A stretch of DNA of 37,545 nt from Candidatus Cloacimonadota bacterium (GCA_016932035.1 JAFGDR010000024.1:1-37545); one strand, 5' to 3'. Positions 2,314-12,237 are shown, counted from the stretch's first letter. The notes: generated by a model from the letters alone, not told the origin. Translations and numbers: made by a program.

Positions 2314-2344
2314 AAAGCCGTCACAAATGCGACGGCTTTTTTTT
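2314..2344 (+). terminator. Rho-independent terminator after the barrel-lipoprotein operon
   Basis: Nine-base perfect stem (AAAGCCGTC, 2314-2322, with GACGGCTTT, 2331-2339), an eight-base loop, and a run of T at 2337-2344. It lies 30 bases after the lipoprotein stop. Confidence 0.88.
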
Positions 2345-2364: not shown

Positions 2365-2525
2365 ACCAAGCATGAATTGAACCCCACAATTCACTGATAT
2401 AGTGTCAGTTACAGGTTTTGTATTGCTAGGTTAAGAAAATGGGTGCTTTTTATCGAACACCCTTAATTTACTTATTATAAGTTATTTACGAGATATTTCT
2501 CGCAAGAAATCACAAATGGTGACCC
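2365..2525. repeat. Left copy of tRNA-Glu-3'-end/trailer direct repeat
   Basis: Bases 2441-2525 match 8265-8349 with 3 mismatches in 85. The part left of that (2365-2440) is a more diverged match of 8177-8264. Read on the minus strand, the repeat begins with GGGTCACCA, the last nine bases of the intact tRNA-Glu at 8341-8415. It continues into the trailer and terminator hairpin, then into a decayed piece resembling a tRNA-Glu T arm (2365-2383). Together with the right copy it brackets the two tandem beta-helix genes. It could be an attachment-site remnant or the scar of a duplication. Confidence 0.8.
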
Positions 2526-2599
2526 TTAACCTCGAAGATTACATTGAGATCTATAAAGAGCTCGTGGTGATGAATGAAGTACTGAAGGATTTGCTGTGA
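2516..2599 (+). pseudogene. Possible gene remnant (27-codon C-terminal tail)
   Basis: Starting from the ATG inside the repeat, the frame reads 27 codons to TGA. The product is acidic and helical-looking, with Leu-Glu-Asp-Tyr-Ile-Glu and ending Leu-Lys-Asp-Leu-Leu. The codons look native, there is no ribosome-binding site, and the sequence starts exactly where the tRNA-derived repeat ends. I read it as the 3' end of a gene cut off by the event that placed the repeat here. A chance open frame is also possible. I do not recognise the family. Confidence 0.3.
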
Positions 2600-2609
2600 T
2601 TGCCAGCTA

Positions 2610-4838
2610 CTACTTAACCTTCACCATCTTCCTCACCACTGCATGTCCATTATACTCTAACTTATATAAATATGTTCCTGGTGCAACCTGTGTTCCATAT
2701 TCGTCTGTACCATCCCACAAAATCTTGGTTTTTGCCCAGAAATTGTTGGTTCTTCCATCGAAACTTCGAATACGTTGTCCTCGTGTATTGTATATTGAAA
2801 GTTTGTAATCTTCTACTCTTGTATAATCCGCTGTGATGAATAATATTTCGGTCTCATTCGTAAAGGGATTCGGTGTATTTTGGAATAAATACAAATTATG
2901 AATAAAACTCGTATCCGGTTGATCCACACTGACTGTATCCTGGCACTCATACGCGCCGATGTCTATTCTTCCATTAAATATTCTCGGATTTCCTGCCAGG
3001 TCCGTTGCAGGTAAATGCAGTCCCGTTGTATCCGGCGTGCCTGCATCTATGCAGGGAGAATATTTTGTTAACTCATAGCTGAACGGATCCCCACCAACAA
3101 ACAACGGATCCTCGTCTATGTTGCCGTCTCCCCAATATAATGTACCATTATTATTTGTGTTGATTGCATCTATGCCGCCGTCAATATTGCAGTACTCCAC
3201 AGAAGCAGAACAAGGATCTCCAATTGGAGAAAACCATATCTCAGTATCCGGTTCATTCCTAAGAATCGTATTAATTAAATGTATATGACTATCATCAACT
3301 AAGCGTATTGTTCCTTCAGAACAGTCCTTGTTATCAACGACAGTAGAATTTATCAAATAAGCACTATCATAACTCCATGTTATTGAAATACCACTACAAA
3401 GAATTCCATAATTATTTGTAATACTTGTATTTACTATTACCGGACAAGTATTATTACTAAACGTTATAGCTCCAAAATTATCAGTAGCTGGATTCACAAT
3501 ATTACCCCTTATCTTACAATTATTAAGTAATAATGAAGTATTGAGTCTTGCACTTAATGCAACTGCGTTGGTCTCACCTAAAGAGCTTATATCTACATTT
3601 TTCAGTGAGGATAAACAATTTGAATATAAAAATAAATGTGATACTCCATCTCCAATACAATCATTATTTTCTATAATGATATTTTCAAAATTTACCGATG
3701 AATTATAATTAATATCTATACCACCTACATAATGTCCAAAACCATTAATTAGAGAAATATCTTGTACTACATAATCCGAAATTTTATCTATTTCAAACAG
3801 AATTGCTGTTTGTTCTGCATTGATGACAGTAAGCTCTTTACCTGCACCTTTTAAAGAAAGATAATCCTTCCCACCAAATGCAAAGAATTCACCAGTTACA
3901 GATGGTGAATACGTACCTTCTGCTAAATAAATTGTGTTTGGATGCGTACTATCCGATTCTGTCATAATAAGTGCATAATATATATTCTTTAACGCATTAT
4001 TCCAATCCAAACCGTTGTTTGTATTATAACCATCAGGTGATACATAAATATCATGATTAATTTGTTCTATCTTGTGATTGTTGACTGTAATTATGATAGT
4101 TCCATGTCGTGAATAAGCATAGAATTTATCTGGTTCCTGGACAGTAAAGGTATCAACATAAACCGTCATATTACCTAAATGATTATAAACATCACTACCA
4201 GCGGGGGCATAATTCAAATATATATCACAGGGTTCATCTTGTGAAAAAGAAATATTAACATTACTATCCCCTCTGTTGATACCTCCACCTGTTCCGTGAG
4301 CAAAATTATTTATAATTTTGGTTCCAGAAATATTTAGTTCTAGACAATCATTTACAAAAATTCCTCCTCCGATGTCGGCTACATTATTTTGTATAATACA
4401 ATTTAATATATTGAATGTGTTTATAATATCATCTCCATACCCAATGTATATTCCACCACCAAAGGTATTATCATACCCATCATCATTTCCACTTCCATGC
4501 TGGATAGTAAATCCACATATACTCGCCTCATCTCCCCCGTCTTTGTTAACCACACAACTACCATTATTATTTCCATCGATAATCGTGTTTTGTATATATG
4601 CTTCATCTTCTGTTGTATAGTACTTGCTTGCAACCGTGATGTTCTTTGCTTTATAATCTATGTTCTCAAAATAGGTGCCTGGATAAACAAGAATAATATC
4701 TCCGTCAGATGCGTTATCTATACCCTCTTGAATAGTTGTGTAGTCTCCGGTACCGTTGATGTCTACGATTATGGTTGATGACCAGATATTAGTAAAAGGA
4801 AGTATAATTAATATAATTGCTATGGATAAATTTTTCAT
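2610..4838 (-). CDS. Secreted right-handed beta-helix protein with T9SS-type C-terminal sorting domain
   Basis: Predicted 742 residues. It has an N-terminal signal peptide ending near Trp-Ser-Ser, then a pectate-lyase-like opening (GDYTTIQEGID, followed by VYPGTYFEN) typical of parallel beta-helix surface proteins. A second helix module begins near residue 265 with a DUF1565-like YVSPDG..NNGLDW motif. A SPCIDAGTPD motif follows, and the last 90 residues form a FlgD-like Ig domain (TPNPFTNET, then APGTYLYKLEY, ending in a Lys-rich tail), the usual type A cargo signal of type IX secretion. I chose the second of two adjacent ATGs because GAGG then sits five bases upstream, as in the neighbouring paralogue. 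It is the downstream gene of a two-gene minus-strand unit. Surface adhesion or polysaccharide binding is plausible, but no catalytic residues are evident. Confidence 0.88.
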   Translation of the reverse strand: MKNLSIAIILIILPFTNIWSSTIIVDINGTGDYTTIQEGIDNASDGDIILVYPGTYFENIDYKAKNITVASKYYTTEDEAYIQNTIIDGNNNGSCVVNKDGGDEASICGFTIQHGSGNDDGYDNTFGGGIYIGYGDDIINTFNILNCIIQNNVADIGGGIFVNDCLELNISGTKIINNFAHGTGGGINRGDSNVNISFSQDEPCDIYLNYAPAGSDVYNHLGNMTVYVDTFTVQEPDKFYAYSRHGTIIITVNNHKIEQINHDIYVSPDGYNTNNGLDWNNALKNIYYALIMTESDSTHPNTIYLAEGTYSPSVTGEFFAFGGKDYLSLKGAGKELTVINAEQTAILFEIDKISDYVVQDISLINGFGHYVGGIDINYNSSVNFENIIIENNDCIGDGVSHLFLYSNCLSSLKNVDISSLGETNAVALSARLNTSLLLNNCKIRGNIVNPATDNFGAITFSNNTCPVIVNTSITNNYGILCSGISITWSYDSAYLINSTVVDNKDCSEGTIRLVDDSHIHLINTILRNEPDTEIWFSPIGDPCSASVEYCNIDGGIDAINTNNNGTLYWGDGNIDEDPLFVGGDPFSYELTKYSPCIDAGTPDTTGLHLPATDLAGNPRIFNGRIDIGAYECQDTVSVDQPDTSFIHNLYLFQNTPNPFTNETEILFITADYTRVEDYKLSIYNTRGQRIRSFDGRTNNFWAKTKILWDGTDEYGTQVAPGTYLYKLEYNGHAVVRKMVKVK

Positions 4839-4856
4839 CATTACCTCACCCCCGTT

Positions 4857-4886
4857 CCCCCTCTCCGAAATAGATCAGAGAGGGGG
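4857..4886 (-). other. Hairpin between the two tandem beta-helix genes
   Basis: A nine-base perfect stem (CCCCCTCTC, 4857-4865, with GAGAGGGGG, 4878-4886) around a 12-base loop lies between the two genes, just upstream of the ribosome-binding site of the second. There is no T run after it, so it looks more like an RNA-processing or stability hairpin than a terminator. Confidence 0.55.
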
Positions 4887-4906
4887 TATTGGAGTTTATT
4901 ATACTT

Positions 4907-7579
4907 TTATTTCATGAGTAACATTTTGTGAAGAGCGGTTTTATTGCCTGAAGTAAGTTTATAGAAATAGATGCTGTTCTTTACGTCGTTACCATATCTG
5001 TCCCTGCAATCCCACGAAACAGAATGATATACATCCTTGCTTCCTGAAGATATGATACAGTCACAATCGATGGTTCGTACCAATTGACCACGTATGTTAT
5101 ATATGTTTAGTTCCGTATGTGCTGCATTCTGTTCAGGCATGAACCTGATCGTTGTCATGTTCGTTCTTACTGGATTCGGATAATTCTGTAACAATGTGAT
5201 TGTGTGAATAAAAGAGGATTCATTTGTATTCAGTTTAACTGTTGCAAAGGATTTTCGTTCATAGTAGAGGGGCTTTGCAATATATGCCTGGTTTTCATTA
5301 CTATACATAATGAACGGAATCGATTTAAAAGGTTCACCTTTTTGACCTTCGTAGTACAATTTGAATTCCAGTCCGTTATTACCATTCTTTAATGTTTCAG
5401 GGGTATATGCGAGGATCTGAACCGGATAATTATTATTATGCACTTTACTCGCTCCAATACATTGATCATCACTGAACACCGCAATCTCAGCAATTGATGA
5501 ATCTGAATAGACTGTATCAATATTTATAGCCATATAGTCGATTTTTTCAGTATAGGTAAAATAATCGGTCATTTCTCTTGTCTTTGGTGGAACTGGTGGA
5601 GAGGATTCATTCCAAACGAGATCACATTCCTCATACACTTCTATTATATAAAGTTCTCCTGGATTTACAGTGAGAGAATCAACAATGCAGGGAGTCGTTC
5701 CGGGTTCCGGACGTTCAACAGCCCAGTGCTCCGAATACACAGCACTCCATTCATCCCATATCGAATCAAACGCGTCTGTAAAAGCAGCCGGTTCTTCCAA
5801 AAAACAGCCAATCCAATTCTCCTGCTCAGTAAGAAGACCTATCTTTGTGCTCTCATCGAGCCATGTGCCGGAGATACCCTTCACGGGTATGTCATCATAT
5901 TGCTCCTTTAATTCAATCTTATAGCCCTGCCTGCTGTCAAATTCATCATCCGTTAAGTCAATCTGCCATCCTTGGTTATACCAAACTGCTTCATTATTTT
6001 GATAAACAACTCTATAAAGAATGTCATCATTATAAAATTGATCATCATCCATTAATCCCTGTTTAATCAGGACGCTGTCTGCTCTCATCCAATTCGTTGT
6101 AGTTCTGTTCAATACAGGGAAAGACATCCAATCAACATTATCGAACTCTTCATTATCATAATCATCTTTGAAGTAATCATGCGAAGCAACAGGGATAGCG
6201 CCCATATCTGCAGGGGTGTCATCTGCGTCCTCGTATTGTGCACCGGGATGTCCTGTGTCTATACAGGGAGAGAAACCACCAGCATTCCACTTCAGGGTGT
6301 AATCGTCACTTGTTCTATTTGTAAAGAGAGGATCACAGTCCAAACAGTATATTTCCTGAGAAGGGGATGAATCATAGTTACCTAAACTGTTATCATAAAG
6401 ATCGGAATATCCAACAACTAATAACTCGGTCCCAGTATTCCATCGTATGCCGTATCCTTCATTAAATGCAATGATATTGTTGTAAATACCATTATAATAT
6501 CCTGAATCACCTAAATATACAGCTGCTTTATTAAGATCATACATACTATCATAGCAATCATTATCAACAATTGTATTATTATTAATTATGTAAGAATCAG
6601 AACTTGAATACGAAGGAACATGTCGGATGCAAATGACGGAACTTGAATAATCACAGTTATTTTCATAAATCATATTACCTGTAATTGCAATTTCAGCATT
6701 ATCAGTTAGATGAATTAATTGTTGAGAATCATTATTATATATTGTATTATTAATAATTTCAATCGGATCTTCATTATCGTCCCATGAATCATCGAATTCT
6801 GAATAAAGCAATGAAGCCTCACTGACTGAATAGGTATCGTACGTATTGTTATAGATGTTATTATTATCAATAGTTGGTGAATTATCATCATCTGCAACGA
6901 TATAAATTGCAATACCTTCTCGATCTACAGTGGTAGCGTATCCTAAATAGGAACTTAACCTATTATTGTAAATATCATTATTTCGGATTGTAACATTATC
7001 CTTACATGCAATTGCAATACCACCTTCAACGTCAATTCCTTCATTATTTCTAATGACACAATCTTCTACAATAGTATTTCCTTCACAATATATTGCAATT
7101 CCCAAACCATAGTGATTAGTTCCTGTTGAATTATCATAAGTACAATACTCAATAACGCAGTTTCTTATGATTGGTGAAGCTCCATTAGTACAACTAATTA
7201 CAGCTCCTTTCTCGGGACTATGATCTCCATCGAATTCAAAATCCCTGATTGTGAAACCATAAATTAAATCATTATTGTTGATATTAGAATCTGTTAAATT
7301 GAAAACACTATAATAACTAAGATCTTCCTCACCATCTATGATGCAATTATCGGGACCACCGTATGATCTTACCGTTATATGTTTGTTTTGCCAGCTAAGA
7401 TTATTCTCGTTATAAACACCATCTAAAACCCAGACAACATCACCATTCTGTGCATTATATATGCCTGCTTCAATGGTTGTATAATCTCCATTGCCATTGC
7501 AGTCAACCACTATCGTATCAGCAAAACATATTGTTAATGTTACTAATGTAATTACTATCGTAAGAAATATCTTTTTCAT
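4907..7579 (-). CDS. Large secreted right-handed beta-helix protein with T9SS-type sorting domain
   Basis: 890 residues. A signal peptide (Lys-Lys, hydrophobic core, cleavage near Cys-Phe-Ala-Asp) is followed by a parallel beta-helix region to about residue 460. This opens with the same GDYTTIEAGIYNA motif as its neighbour and carries many short Asn-rich NNTIYNN-type coils. A central non-helix region rich in Trp, Asp and Glu (about 470-690) is followed by a linker and a FlgD-like sorting domain (YPNPVRTN, then an Ile-Tyr-Asn-Ile-Arg-Gly strand, ending KMLLMK). The ATG has GAGG five bases upstream. It is the first gene of the two-gene unit. No enzyme motif is visible; a cell-surface or released adhesive role is inferred from the fold and the sorting tail. 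Confidence 0.88.
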   Translation of the reverse strand: MKKIFLTIVITLVTLTICFADTIVVDCNGNGDYTTIEAGIYNAQNGDVVWVLDGVYNENNLSWQNKHITVRSYGGPDNCIIDGEEDLSYYSVFNLTDSNINNNDLIYGFTIRDFEFDGDHSPEKGAVISCTNGASPIIRNCVIEYCTYDNSTGTNHYGLGIAIYCEGNTIVEDCVIRNNEGIDVEGGIAIACKDNVTIRNNDIYNNRLSSYLGYATTVDREGIAIYIVADDDNSPTIDNNNIYNNTYDTYSVSEASLLYSEFDDSWDDNEDPIEIINNTIYNNDSQQLIHLTDNAEIAITGNMIYENNCDYSSSVICIRHVPSYSSSDSYIINNNTIVDNDCYDSMYDLNKAAVYLGDSGYYNGIYNNIIAFNEGYGIRWNTGTELLVVGYSDLYDNSLGNYDSSPSQEIYCLDCDPLFTNRTSDDYTLKWNAGGFSPCIDTGHPGAQYEDADDTPADMGAIPVASHDYFKDDYDNEEFDNVDWMSFPVLNRTTTNWMRADSVLIKQGLMDDDQFYNDDILYRVVYQNNEAVWYNQGWQIDLTDDEFDSRQGYKIELKEQYDDIPVKGISGTWLDESTKIGLLTEQENWIGCFLEEPAAFTDAFDSIWDEWSAVYSEHWAVERPEPGTTPCIVDSLTVNPGELYIIEVYEECDLVWNESSPPVPPKTREMTDYFTYTEKIDYMAINIDTVYSDSSIAEIAVFSDDQCIGASKVHNNNYPVQILAYTPETLKNGNNGLEFKLYYEGQKGEPFKSIPFIMYSNENQAYIAKPLYYERKSFATVKLNTNESSFIHTITLLQNYPNPVRTNMTTIRFMPEQNAAHTELNIYNIRGQLVRTIDCDCIISSGSKDVYHSVSWDCRDRYGNDVKNSIYFYKLTSGNKTALHKMLLMK

Positions 7580-7716
7580 GTTAACCTCATTATATTTTTT
7601 TCCTTTATCCCGTTTTTCCTCCTTCCTATAAAGGTAATTCGTAAAGGAGTATTCCCGGCAATCTCAATATTCCATTTCATAAATTCCTTTCTACTATGTT
7701 CGAATTTTTTGTCAAT

Positions 7717-7755
7717 AAGAAAACCTATCTATTTTGGGAATCACGATAGATAGGT
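7717..7755 (-). terminator. Terminator-like hairpin, minus strand, with no gene in front of it
   Basis: A perfect ten-base stem (ACCTATCTAT, 7723-7732, with ATAGATAGGT, 7746-7755) and a 13-base loop, followed on the minus strand by TTTTCTT. It has the shape of a minus-strand terminator, yet no gene ends just before it. It may be the tail of a lost gene or a leader element of the beta-helix gene that starts at 7579. Confidence 0.45.
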
Positions 7756-8176
7756 CTGTTCAACTGAATTTGTTCTTACCTGTAACATAATCAAAGGAAA
7801 TGGTATTCTTTACATTTTTATTTTTTTCTGTAAATTCCTTACTTGATAAATAATAAATAGATGCAACACGTATCTTTATAAAATAATCATATAAAATAAT
7901 TCTTATAGTCATGATTCTCTATTTAATCTCATTCTTTTTATATATATCATAAAAATACCTATTTTGTGACGCCACCACTCAAAAAAGTTGGAATTTCTTA
8001 TCAAATATATAAATAATGAGTAGTAAAACAGTAAAAGAAGAACTCGGTTTGTACCAAAAGATGTAATATTTTCATTTACAGTTACGGTTATGATTTGTTT
8101 ATGAATGCGTAAACTTGAATTGGTATACTTTAATCTACAGGTAAATTATTCATTAAAATATCAGAATTGCCTAATA

Positions 8177-8349
8177 GACCCAAGGGGAATCGAACCTCGC
8201 AATTCATTGCTATAGAGTTACTTATAGATTTTATCGTGACTATGTTTGATGGAAAATGAAAAAAGGGTGCTCTTTATCGAACACCCTTAATTTACTTATT
8301 ATAGGTTACTTACGAGATATTTCTCGCAAGAAATCACAAATGGTGACCC
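8177..8349. repeat. Right copy of tRNA-Glu-3'-end/trailer direct repeat
   Basis: Partner of 2365-2525. Bases 8265-8349 match 2441-2525 with 3 differences. The right end enters the acceptor end of the intact tRNA-Glu. The left end (8177-8196) is itself a near-perfect copy, one C short, of the acceptor and T-arm part of that tRNA (8345-8365), so tRNA-Glu ends occur in layers here. Confidence 0.8.
8259..8286 (-). terminator. Terminator of the tRNA-Lys/tRNA-Glu operon
   Basis: On the minus strand the hairpin GGGTGTTC-GATAAA-GAGCACCC (one mismatch) is followed by six T (8264-8259). It lies 55 bases after the tRNA-Glu 3' end. A smaller hairpin, CGAGA with TCTCG, sits in the trailer between them. 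Confidence 0.65.
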
Positions 8350-8415
8350 CAAGGGGAATCGAACCCCTATTGCAGGAATGAAAATCCTGAGTCCTAACCG
8401 TTAGACGATGGGGCC
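8341..8415 (-). tRNA. tRNA-Glu (anticodon TTC)
   Basis: The cloverleaf folds by eye. The acceptor stem is GGCCCCA with TGGGGTC, including one G-U pair. The anticodon stem CAGGA/TCCTG encloses TTTTCAT, giving anticodon TTC. The T arm is GGGG-TTCGATT-CCCC and a CCA end is encoded. It lies 17 bases downstream of tRNA-Lys and is transcribed with it. Its 3' end coincides with the flanking repeat. Confidence 0.95.
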
Positions 8416-8432
8416 TAAAGGAAAAAACTAAA

Positions 8433-8507
8433 TGGTGAGCCAGGAAGGATTCGAACCTTCGACTCTCGCCTTAAAAGGGCGATACTCTACCACTGAGTTA
8501 CTGGCCC
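8433..8507 (-). tRNA. tRNA-Lys (anticodon TTT)
   Basis: Acceptor stem GGGCCAG with CTGGCTC, a D arm with AACTCAGTGGTAGAGT, and anticodon stem TCGCC/GGCGA enclosing CTTTTAA (anticodon TTT). The T arm is GAAGG-TTCGAAT-CCTTC and CCA is encoded. It is the first gene of a two-tRNA unit. Confidence 0.95.
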
Positions 8508-8517
8508 GTGAGTTCGC

Positions 8518-8547
8518 TACATTTTTAAGCACCCATTTGTTTGTCAA
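8518..8547 (-). promoter_or_regulatory. Probable promoter of the tRNA-Lys/Glu operon
   Basis: On the minus strand a perfect TTGACA (8547-8542) is followed, after 17-18 bases, by AAATGT/AATGTA. The -10 is weak, but the spacing would start transcription a few bases before the tRNA-Lys 5' end at 8507. Confidence 0.4.
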
Positions 8548-8633
8548 ATTTTTTGGTCTTAGCTCTCTTACGTGATTTTTCTTGACAGCACACGTGTCGA
8601 ATTTTGTGTAACCACAAAAAGGATATCATTTTC

Positions 8634-11300
8634 ATGCTTACCAGTTCGCAGACCAGAAAAAGCTTTTTAGACTTCTTTGCAGCAAAAGGTCACGAGATAG
8701 TTCCTTCTGCTCCACTTGTGCCGATCAACGATCCTTCACTGCTTTTTACAAACGCAGGAATGAACCAATTCAAGGACATCTTTCTTGGAACCGGTTCACG
8801 AGATTACACACGAGCAGTTGACAGCCAGAAATGCCTTCGCGCCGGAGGTAAACACAACGATCTTGAGGAAGTTGGAAAGGACGAATATCACCACACTTTC
8901 TTCGAAATGCTCGGTAACTGGTCATTCGGTGATTATTATAAAAAAGAAGCGATCGAATGGGCATGGGAACTGGTTACCTCAATCTGGAATATTCCCAAAG
9001 ACAGATTGTATGCATCGGTGCATTATGAAGATGATGAATCCTTTGAGCTATGGAAAAAGGTCACAGATATAGCACCTGAGCGTGTACTTAAATTCGGTGA
9101 TAAAGACAATTTCTGGGAAATGGCAGATACCGGTCCCTGCGGACCGTGCTCGGAAATCCATTATGACCGAGGAATAGACCATTGTTCTCACAAAGATGAT
9201 CCAAACCATATCTGTGAAGTGAACGGTTCATGCGGACGCTATGTCGAGATATGGAATCTCGTGTTTATACAATTCAACCGTCTTGAAAATGGAGAACTTA
9301 TAGACCTGCCCAAAAAGCATGTGGATACCGGCGCGGGTTTCGAGCGTCTCGTTGCAATTCTTCAAGGCAAAACATCAAACTATGAAACCGATCTGTTCAT
9401 GCCGATCATTTGTCAAATAGAAAAGATTGCAGATACAAAATTTGAAGATGACAAACATTCGTTTCGAGTAATCTCAGATCATATACGAGCCCTGACATGC
9501 GCTATTGCGGACGGCGTACTTCCTTCAAATGTTGGAAGAGGATATGTCATCAGAAGAATCTTGCGCAGAGCAACACGCTTTGGCAGGATCATCAATATCC
9601 ACAAACCTTTCCTTGCAGAGCTTGTCGATACAGTCTGTGATATTCTTGGTGATCAATATCCTGAGATCATCGAGAAAAAGATGCACGTCAAGATGGCGAT
9701 CAATGCAGAAGAAGAGCGATTCAACCAGACGCTGGATATGGGAATCAGTAAATTCAACGATATCGTTGATCAACTCGGCACCAGCACCATTATCTCAGGT
9801 AAAAATGCTTTTATGCTTTATGATACGTATGGATTCCCCCTTGATCTCACTGAGCTTATGGCTGAAGAAAAAGGTCTGGAAGTTGATAAAAGGGGATTTG
9901 AAAAAGAGATGGAAGCACAAAAAGCTCGTGCACGCGATGATGCTAAATTCGATCACCAAAAAGACTCATTTTCAAAACTGGATGTGCCGGCAGAACATAA
10001 AAGTGAATTCATCGGATATGAAAACGACGCAGCAAATTGCAGGATCGAGCATTACTATGTTGATGAGGACAATAATGTCGTGCTTGTACTCGACAAAACT
10101 CCGTTCTATGCAGAATCCGGCGGTGAGGTTGCTGATACGGGAAAAATATTCAATAGCGAATTCGAGATAGTGGTTGAGGATGTGCAGAAACAAAATGATG
10201 TGATCTTTCATTTTGGTAAGTTGGTCAGCGGTGCAATAAAAGAGAAAAATGTAAAAGCGCTTGTCGATCTTGAACGACGGAAAAATATTGCGCGAAATCA
10301 TACTGCAACACACCTTCTTCATGCAGCACTTCGTGAAGTACTCGGCACCCATCTCCATCAGAAAGGTTCTCATGTTGCGCCGGATAGATTAAGATTCGAC
10401 TTCACTCATTTTCAGCAGGTTTCCACCGAAGAACTCGAGCGAGTTGAACGTCTTGTGAATCAAAAAATCATCTCGAACATTCCTGTCAACCCCTCAATTG
10501 AAGATCTCGATAACGCACGAAAAAAAGGAGCGATGGCTCTCTTTGGTGAAAAGTACGAAAAGAAAGTACGGGTTATTGGTATTGGTGACTATTCGATGGA
10601 GCTATGCGGAGGTCTGCACAGCCAGCGAACGGGTGATGTCGGTTTTTTCAAGATCATTTCAGAAAGCTCTATCGCCGCAGGGGTTCGCAGGATCGAAGCA
10701 GTAACAGGTCTTTTCGCCTATGATTTCGTTAAAGAACACGAGCACATTCTTCATCAGATACAAGGGCAGTTGAATACAAAATTATCTGAAGTTCCAGAAA
10801 AAATAGATAAATTGCATGCTGAAAACAAGGAACTGCGGAAGCACATCGATGGACTTGAATCATCGACGTTAAGGGATGTTATATCTGAACGTATTGCGCA
10901 AAAAATCGAGGTGGAAGGTGTTGCTGTTGTGTCCGGAATTCTCAACGTGAATGACGTTCATCAACTCAAAGAAGCTGCTGATATACTCAGGCAAAAAATT
11001 GGTTCGTGTATCGGCTTATTCGGTGCAGCAATCGATGATAAAGTCTCCCTCGTATGCATTGTGACCAAAGACCTGACCAAGCGTTTTCATGCTGGTAAGA
11101 TCGTGAACAAAGCTGCTGCATACGTAGGCGGCAAGGGCGGCGGAAAGCCAGATATGGCAATGGCTGGCGGAAAAAATCTTGAGGGAATGAAAAACCTTTT
11201 TGAAGAAATCCACAAAATAATAAAGTCTCCTTTTTCAAGAAAATATTTTACAGAAAATACTAAAAAATCCGAAACGAATAGCAACAACAAAAATGTATAA
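8634..11300 (+). CDS. alaS: Alanyl-tRNA synthetase
   Basis: Charges tRNA-Ala with alanine and edits mischarged Ser/Gly in the cytoplasm. The 888-residue length fits bacterial AlaS (about 875). The start of the protein (SFLDFFAAKGHE, then NDPSLLFTNAGMNQFKD) is the class II core. ADGVLPSNVGRGYVIRR follows in the tRNA-recognition part. The editing site has HTATHLLH and the CGGLH motif (most homologues have CGGTH), followed by TGDVGFFKI. The C-terminal DHHA1 domain has GGKGGGKPDMAMAGG. An upstream in-frame TTG (8604) would add ten residues absent from the family, so I chose the ATG at 8634, with AAGGA about ten bases before it. A TTGACA at 8582-8587 may be its -35. It overlaps the next gene by eight bases. 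Confidence 0.97.
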   Translation: MLTSSQTRKSFLDFFAAKGHEIVPSAPLVPINDPSLLFTNAGMNQFKDIFLGTGSRDYTRAVDSQKCLRAGGKHNDLEEVGKDEYHHTFFEMLGNWSFGDYYKKEAIEWAWELVTSIWNIPKDRLYASVHYEDDESFELWKKVTDIAPERVLKFGDKDNFWEMADTGPCGPCSEIHYDRGIDHCSHKDDPNHICEVNGSCGRYVEIWNLVFIQFNRLENGELIDLPKKHVDTGAGFERLVAILQGKTSNYETDLFMPIICQIEKIADTKFEDDKHSFRVISDHIRALTCAIADGVLPSNVGRGYVIRRILRRATRFGRIINIHKPFLAELVDTVCDILGDQYPEIIEKKMHVKMAINAEEERFNQTLDMGISKFNDIVDQLGTSTIISGKNAFMLYDTYGFPLDLTELMAEEKGLEVDKRGFEKEMEAQKARARDDAKFDHQKDSFSKLDVPAEHKSEFIGYENDAANCRIEHYYVDEDNNVVLVLDKTPFYAESGGEVADTGKIFNSEFEIVVEDVQKQNDVIFHFGKLVSGAIKEKNVKALVDLERRKNIARNHTATHLLHAALREVLGTHLHQKGSHVAPDRLRFDFTHFQQVSTEELERVERLVNQKIISNIPVNPSIEDLDNARKKGAMALFGEKYEKKVRVIGIGDYSMELCGGLHSQRTGDVGFFKIISESSIAAGVRRIEAVTGLFAYDFVKEHEHILHQIQGQLNTKLSEVPEKIDKLHAENKELRKHIDGLESSTLRDVISERIAQKIEVEGVAVVSGILNVNDVHQLKEAADILRQKIGSCIGLFGAAIDDKVSLVCIVTKDLTKRFHAGKIVNKAAAYVGGKGGGKPDMAMAGGKNLEGMKNLFEEIHKIIKSPFSRKYFTENTKKSETNSNNKNV

Positions 11301-12237
11301 AATTATTCTCAATCCGTTTGCAGGCAAAGGTAAAGCATTCAAAAGTGTTCGTCATATCGAACATTTTTTTACTAAACTCGATATGTCATACGATTTGGTG
11401 CTGACAAATTGCTCGCGTCAGGCGATCGACTTTGCCCACGAAGCTGTTATTCAGGGGGTGGAGAACATTATCGCCGCAGGTGGTGACGGCACCATAAATG
11501 AAGTGATTAACGGCATAATGAAATCCGGTTATCCAAATAATGTTAATGTTGGCATTATTCCCATTGGCGGTGGTAATGATTTTGCAAAAAACCTTGTTCT
11601 TCCTCACAAACTCAAAGACGTCATAAAAATCATTCAAGATCATCATGTTAACCTTGTGGATATCGGGCAGGTGGAAGATTTTTATTTTATCAATACGCTT
11701 GGTGTCGGCTTCGATGCGCAGGTTGCAATATCATATATAAAAAACAAGTGGCTCAATGGATTCCCAGGATATATGTATGCGGTGATGAAAGCCCTCATCC
11801 GAAAAGACAGTTATTATGTAACGCTCACGATCAATGGTGAAACATTTAAGAAAGATGCACTTTTTGTTACCGTTGGGAACGGCATTTGCTGCGGTGGACA
11901 ATTCTACCTGACACCCGACGCAAAAATTGATGATGAAGAGTTCGATTTCTGCGTTATCGATAAACTGTCCAGACGTAAGATATTGAAATTCATCCCGAAA
12001 GCCGTGAAAGGCTTGCATACCGAACTGCCTGCAGCACATATGTACAAGGGACAGCAAATACTCATCCAATCACAGCGTGACCTGCCCCTCTATATGGATG
12101 GCGAAATTCCTGAACTGAATGATAAAAGAAATATACTTGTAAAAATACTTCCGCACAGAATCAGATTAATCACTCCAAAATACGACTTTGATCAGGATCC
12201 TCGTTCGTTTGGTGAGATGGGGTCGGATACCCAATAA
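11293..12237 (+). CDS. Diacylglycerol kinase-like lipid kinase (DagK/YegS family)
   Basis: 314 residues, a normal length for the family, which phosphorylates diacylglycerol or related lipids with ATP at the inner face of the membrane. Seen in the sequence are the NPFAGKGKA opening (residues 7-15), the nucleotide-binding AAGGDGTINEVING, then IPIGGGNDFAKNL, and near the C-terminus the LYMDGEIPEL motif of the second domain. The ATG lies inside the end of alaS (ATGTATAA overlap), so translation is probably coupled. It would recycle diacylglycerol from envelope synthesis, but a sphingosine- or undecaprenol-type substrate cannot be excluded from sequence alone. Its stop faces the convergent beta-helix gene that ends at 12309. 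Confidence 0.9.
   Translation: MYKIILNPFAGKGKAFKSVRHIEHFFTKLDMSYDLVLTNCSRQAIDFAHEAVIQGVENIIAAGGDGTINEVINGIMKSGYPNNVNVGIIPIGGGNDFAKNLVLPHKLKDVIKIIQDHHVNLVDIGQVEDFYFINTLGVGFDAQVAISYIKNKWLNGFPGYMYAVMKALIRKDSYYVTLTINGETFKKDALFVTVGNGICCGGQFYLTPDAKIDDEEFDFCVIDKLSRRKILKFIPKAVKGLHTELPAAHMYKGQQILIQSQRDLPLYMDGEIPELNDKRNILVKILPHRIRLITPKYDFDQDPRSFGEMGSDTQ

Follow-up and report, generated by a model that had tools for sequence, protein, structure and literature searches.

The DNA analysed here, called the window below, is the whole 37,545-nt contig JAFGDR010000024.1 of GCA_016932035.1 (G000:C24), from a draft genome of a Candidatus Cloacimonadota bacterium of the class Cloacimonadia, and our subject is the block of DNA that two direct repeats enclose beside a tRNA-Glu gene. 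We argue that this block is probably what remains of an integrative element whose large serine recombinase (LSR) had the element's attachment (att) site, attP, inside its own gene. The features on which the argument draws are the following (ORF, open reading frame; aa, amino acids).

2314-2339, minus strand: native-type tRNA-Glu terminator, a GCCGTC-type hairpin, about 6 kb from the tRNA
2374-2440, strand not assigned: leftward extension of the left repeat, with weaker similarity to 8187-8264
2441-2516, plus strand: left copy of "U", with 96% identity to its right counterpart, putative start of a neighbouring, mostly lost element
2516-2599, plus strand: "end-ORF", MVTLNLEDYIEIYKELVVMNEVLKDLL, 27 codons, starting inside the tRNA core, predicted displaced C-terminus of a split recombinase
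2517-2525: left copy of the att core, a 9-bp tRNA-Glu 3' fragment
2610-4841, minus strand: H1, a 743-aa partner protein with a FlgD_ig/CHU_C-like tail, probable passenger
4907-7579, minus strand: H2, an 890-aa beta-helix protein with a secretion-tail-like C-terminus, probable passenger
8074-8340: stretch common to the window and genome G002 at its tRNA-Glu
8263-8288, minus strand: terminator-like hairpin inside the right repeat, in place of the displaced native tRNA terminator
8265-8340, plus strand: right copy of U, an element end, putative decayed 3' end of an LSR gene reading toward the tRNA
8341-8349: right copy of the att core, the nine 3'-terminal bases of tRNA-Glu, TGGTGACCC on the plus strand
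8341-8415, minus strand: intact tRNA-Glu(TTC), the presumed integration target (attB side)
8433-8507, minus strand: tRNA-Lys(TTT), upstream partner of tRNA-Glu

An earlier, sequence-only reading of this DNA had noticed the repeats, and they are real. Positions 2441-2525 and 8265-8349 agree at 82 of 85 bases, the slightly longer copies 2436-2525 and 8260-8349 are 96% identical over 90 nt without a gap, and the 76-nt part behind the tRNA alone reaches 96.1% identity with z = 17.8 against 200 shuffles, which excludes chance. The right copy takes in the last nine bases of tRNA-Glu (8341-8349), and the weaker similarity that had been noted further left can be traced to 2374/8187, at 82% overall. 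A search of the organism's own genome with the repeat DNA, as that reading had advised, returned these two copies and no third. The beta-helix pair does lie between them, but it is not alone there as had been claimed, since the 27-codon end-ORF had gone unlisted, and the sequence truly shared as an att core is only about 9 bp long. The hairpin at 8263-8288 scores as a terminator on the minus strand; its left counterpart, 2441-2462, scores weaker.

The tRNA-Glu site in relatives

The Lys-Glu tRNA pair is kept throughout the class, and in four relatives of the same genus (G001, G003, G004 and G006) a native terminator stands directly behind it, a GCCGTC-type hairpin of the form GCCGTCAC...GTGACGGC followed by a T run. 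Window U has no likeness to the native trailers of relatives (z <= 1.8); it resembles the DNA beside tRNA-Glu on contigs C9 and C32 of G005 and at a junction on contig C63 of the same genome (z 4.6-6.0). Because native sites have another terminator right after the tRNA, the 76-bp "trailer" is best taken as element DNA, and the earlier description of the repeat as the tRNA's own trailer and terminator has to be given up.

Genome G002 is homologous to the window from 8074 rightwards for 4 kb (8074-12179 against L033 4237-8351, 78%) and also matches 2517-2580 at 87.5%, with merely 18 bp between the two matching stretches. Next in order come a native-type terminator and an ArsR-like gene, named by eye, which also follows tRNA-Glu in G001. 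Since both homologous stretches precede the native-type terminator, about 340 bp, made up of U and end-ORF, part tRNA-Glu from it in G002: the two block ends known from the window are present and the beta-helix genes are absent. On G005:C9 a 2.2-kb element with the same two ends lies at tRNA-Glu(CTC), and the native terminator is displaced. The gene-B loci of G004 and G010 are without the hairpin seen at window 2314-2339. To judge from these alignments, foreign DNA separates tRNA-Glu from its native terminator in the window as it does in G002, and the comparison of relatives, which uncovered unoccupied tRNA-Glu sites, supports the proposal that the 3' end of tRNA-Glu serves as a site of specific insertion. 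The lack of any empty site among relatives, which the earlier reading had set as a refutation, did not come about.

The probable end of a recombinase gene and its displaced C-terminus

The counterpart of U on G005:C9 is an open frame ending in "...IDKFKVLYILFPEGVGVGPKGYRTPITSPIIKHLENISGDNPKMVAPRGIEPLLPE", whose final residues are the antisense of tRNA-Glu(CTC). Pfam, NCBIfam and PHROGs gave no useful match for this 130-aa fragment, tblastn of phages and plasmids gave no match, and recombinase remnants turned up only through the C-terminal peptide and later through a profile. A peptide search with the frame led to Candidatus Tenebribacter burtonii (G057), a member of Cloacimonadota in the same class, which has a full-length, 499-aa LSR (PF00239, PF07508, PF13408) at the same tRNA-Glu(TTC); this protein terminates, as "...KMVSRRGVEPLMQE", inside tRNA-Glu. 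A profile combining the Tenebribacter LSR with LSRs of other bacteria matches the G005:C9 copy of U at E = 1.8e-14, with the alignment reaching the profile end; at E = 1.8e-10 it also picks up a G016 remnant at tRNA-Lys(CTT). A recombinase 3' end adjoining a tRNA is seen in G005, G016, G094 and G057. A tyrosine integrase was considered and rejected: all PF00589 matches of the window's own genome lie on other contigs, and the full-length relative has serine recombinase domains.

The other half of such a gene appears at the left edge of the block. The end-ORF stands directly behind the 9-bp tRNA fragment 2517-2525 and recurs in G002, G005:C63 and G005:C9, always with a tRNA-Glu 3' fragment in front of it; the codon changes behind the core that set the window apart from G002 are all synonymous over the aligned stretch, save one Ile/Val. 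A tail profile, made from LSRs that retain their own C-terminus, aligns across the core into the end-ORF, with 10 bits gained for G005:C9, and the observed scores were reached by 0, 2 and 3 of 1000 shuffled tails (2/1000 for the window). When every in-phase position in the first 12 kb of the window was scanned with this profile on both strands, position 2517 ranked first of 13,274, and the corresponding positions also rank first in L040, L033 and L039. On the strength of the profile alignment, the shuffle controls and the first rank in the scan, the end-ORF is best read as the recombinase's own C-terminus, severed by integration. The far end of the window's block would then hold a displaced C-terminus that follows a tRNA 3' fragment. 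That the end-ORF might be a separate small gene was considered and rejected, as it aligns with LSR C-termini across the core.

The same arrangement was sought among the best 80 LSR loci from GTDB contigs, with upstream DNA fetched for several. At 47 of the 80 a tRNA lies within 150 bp of the recombinase stop or across it, on the opposite strand every time, and the tRNAs include Glu, Ser, Ala, Arg, Thr, Leu, Asn and Phe. Displaced tails that follow a tRNA 3' fragment lie at 3.6 kb in Parcubacteria (L183, rank 1/21,570), at 12.3 kb in Acidobacteria (L151, rank 1/30,267), at 4.5 kb in L152 (rank 1/23,210) and at 3.7 kb in Myxococcales (L159, rank 2/30,993); MASLATPTWNQIVTFLRQMDDLRESSVAVA is an example of a displaced tail from these independent islands. 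The scan gave no information for L143, L208, L210 and L216, was confounded by recombinase matches in G057 and in L169 (where a 14-nt core match at 15.2 kb is suggestive), and was merely suggestive for L217 and L163. In the tRNA-Ala island of L163 with L232, two LSR-C-terminus-like tails about 850 bp apart upstream suggest tandem elements.

Viral contigs from IMG/VR supply what may be the form before integration. In L245 and L253 the LSR gene is uninterrupted and has a tRNA-Asp-like core, TGGCGGGA, inside it, whereas L246, 79% identical to L245 up to the core, then runs into the 3' end of a tRNA that we read by eye as tRNA-Asp with anticodon GTC. Such uninterrupted genes were found in related viral contigs only, not in Cloacimonadota. 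From the split islands and from this comparison of L245 and L253 with L246, it would follow that LSRs of this group have attP within their own gene and exchange their C-terminal tail on integration.

Several side observations concern other copies of these recombinase ends. On G005:C11 a 48-bp tRNA-Glu 3' fragment (L038 9506-9553, 98%) with an attached U-like recombinase end is remote from any tRNA gene and upstream of a 2707-aa ORF. On G016:C136 a decayed LSR end beside tRNA-Lys(CTT) (L124 860-1055) neighbours a 1239-aa ORF with a secretion-tail-like end (L124 1121-4840), an arrangement that parallels the window. In Tenebribacter burtonii, genes that look by eye like Cas9, Cas1 and Cas2, together with short repeats (L104 16748-18000 and L107 276-3506), lie some 6 kb upstream of the full-length LSR at tRNA-Glu and are possibly island cargo.

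How the block may have formed

We put the probability at about 0.86 that the block is left over from an integrative element at tRNA-Glu whose LSR had attP inside its own gene, and that an outer tandem element has been mostly deleted. The element would have inserted between tRNA-Glu and its terminator, using an LSR with attP roughly 75-85 bp before the stop codon. Recombination of attP with the tRNA-Glu 3' end would leave, at one end, the gene body running antisense into the tRNA and gaining a new, tRNA-encoded tail, and, at the other end, the severed C-terminus behind a tRNA fragment. The window would later have lost the recombinase body, so that the recombinase 3' end (the repeat, which may double as a replacement terminator for tRNA-Glu), the cut-off C-terminus at 2516-2599, the 9-bp core and a captured beta-helix pair are what is left. 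A recombinase gene that cuts itself in this way would explain for the window both the missing recombinase and the odd 85-bp repeats. The parts of this history that can be read off the genomes are the occupied and unoccupied sites, the full-length LSR at the same tRNA, the displaced C-termini and the uninterrupted as against the fused LSRs.

No recombinase gene was found in the window by profile searches, as the sequence-only reading had said of integrases, and with no such gene on board we call the block a remnant, as that reading had allowed. PF07508 gave nothing in 17 of the 18 nearest genomes, with a single weak match in G009.

Other results pull against the proposed history. The full search with the LSR profile gave the window's right repeat a weak E = 0.11, from a match that is partly tRNA-encoded, so the window's recombinase origin rests on a chain of related copies and is not proved by the window itself. 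Between window U and the recombinase ends of G005 identity is only about 60%, and PF07508 has zero matches in the window's own genome. The four Cloacimonadota end-ORFs are homologous and count as one test; L246 breaks off within its tRNA at the contig end; no far end was located for the Tenebribacter island; and every Cloacimonadota genome used is a draft assembly, all of the evidence being sequence from draft genomes and contigs.

The second copy of the repeat needs an explanation of its own. The geometry expected of a tRNA island is there: the tRNA is intact at the right-hand end, and a 3' fragment of it, in the same orientation, marks the left. The left copy does not fit a simple attR: its order, U then core then end-ORF, is that of attP, in which an element's end and its start meet at the core. 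One insertion alone would give a second copy of the core and nothing more, and we therefore read the left copy as the junction of two tandem elements, the second of which starts there and whose outer member has shrunk to about 150 bp. This most simply explains an attP-like left repeat, although the tandem origin that we infer is read from the arrangement only, a further point on the negative side. On G005:C63 the same U-core-end-ORF junction occurs with other cargo; there U and the DNA flanking it match G005:C32, a contig on which U lies immediately next to tRNA-Glu.

The main competitor on this point is a variant of the same explanation, differing only in the origin of the second copy: a single insertion followed by duplication of U, through homologous recombination or a local tandem duplication, with no second element ever present. 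The 96% identity of the copies, which are closer to each other than the right copy is to G002, and the presence of just one end-ORF would suit it, but duplication by itself does not set U exactly against core and end-ORF, and the G005:C63 junction fits insertion beside an older element; we consider the variant unlikely. Far less probable is a single classical tRNA island in the tyrosine-integrase style, with the 85-bp repeats as attL and attR formed from tRNA-Glu and its own trailer. It would account for the intact tRNA and the same-orientation fragment, but the native trailers and their terminator differ from the repeat, occupied sites carry the repeat, which is similar to LSR ends, the left copy followed by an LSR C-terminus is in the wrong order for attR, and unoccupied sites already disfavour it. 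Equally improbable is that the beta-helix pair is chromosomal backbone by tRNA-Glu with unrelated att-like relics on either side, for although relatives keep the H2-H1 pair, which is thus not confined to islands, it is not beside tRNA-Glu in those examined, in G006, G003 and G002 it is found on other contigs with neither U nor end-ORF, and the H1 stop is 10 bp from the end-ORF.

With the element remnant as the preferred reading, the beta-helix genes would be cargo that the element either brought along or captured. H2 exceeds the cut-off for PF13229 (Beta_helix), and the secretion-tail matches of H1 and H2 fall slightly under theirs. We regard the pair as a passenger because it is also found elsewhere in relatives (the contigs without U or end-ORF include some of G010 and G009). 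Secreted-protein genes also stand beside such element ends in G005:C63 and G016; as these genes are common in the phylum, we claim no special link between cargo and element.

Some further features surround the block. An 18-nt exact copy of tRNA-Glu positions 8348-8365 at 8179-8196 is possibly an older att scar; a decayed tRNA-Glu(CTC) was also considered, and the class often carries the tRNA order Lys-Glu(TTC)-Glu(CTC). A second tRNA-Glu (CTC) was not found in the window's own genome by DNA search, though same-genus relatives have one, which may reflect an assembly gap. The left-flank genes at 1-2283, the first of which is truncated by the contig start, have conserved counterparts in G004:C127 and G010:C135, next to a regulator-like gene and not near tRNA-Glu; with these genes at another place in G004 and G010, the left flank differs between genomes.

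Relation to known integration systems

Serine integrases are in wide use as tools for genome engineering, and control of their direction is a practical question. We tentatively suggest, at somewhat less than even odds, that the recombinases described here belong to a widespread bacterial LSR group that targets tRNA 3' ends with attP in its own gene, and that the exchange of a tail of about 25 residues acts as a built-in switch, such that integration is favoured by the free-form tail (which in this group often reads W-N-Q-I...) and excision is altered or locked once that tail is lost. If this is how the tail works, the group would be a bacterial serine counterpart of the "suicidal" integrases of archaea, would extend self-splitting integrases to bacteria and to a second enzyme family, and, as a natural LSR group whose integration rewrites its own C-terminus, would offer a direct test of the tail's role in direction. 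A search rule also follows, in which a recombinase ORF running antisense into a tRNA and a severed tail at the far end give the limits of an island, limits that tRNA-island tools restricted to tyrosine integrases would miss.

Integration by serine recombinases at tRNA genes has been described as rare, with phiRSM1 and Mycobacterium actinomycete integrative and conjugative elements (AICEs) as examples (PMC3218068), and was regarded as unknown in the Islander study (PMC4383910). Self-splitting integrases have been described as exclusively archaeal tyrosine enzymes (PMC8371274). Our searches of the open-access literature, which takes in neither preprints nor the bulk of subscription papers, turned up no LSR whose own gene is described as containing attP, and insertion by this kind of self-cutting appears undescribed for this enzyme family.

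The element shares with LSR integrative elements of the phiC31, Bxb1 and A118 types the Resolvase, Recombinase and zinc-ribbon domains of its full-length relatives, a short att core and a recombinase gene beside the att site, and differs from them in that the window's copy is without the recombinase body. With the tRNA islands of tyrosine integrases it has in common that an intact tRNA and a displaced 3' fragment in the same orientation mark the ends, and that tandem arrays occur (PMC4383910), but the recombinase here is of the serine type. The filamentous phage phiRSM at tRNA-Ser and the Mycobacterium AICEs at tRNA-Leu likewise use serine recombinases that integrate at tRNA genes (PMC3218068, PMC3816273); the phiRSM enzyme, however, is small and resolvase-type, and its attP is intergenic, between orf14 and orf15, outside the recombinase gene (PMC3816273). 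Another parallel is found in the archaeal SSV-type suicidal tyrosine integrases, in which attP also lies inside the integrase gene and integration splits it (PMC8371274). Those enzymes belong to an unrelated family and their gene is divided into int(N) and int(C), whereas in the LSR group described here only about 25 C-terminal residues would be exchanged for a tail encoded by the tRNA.
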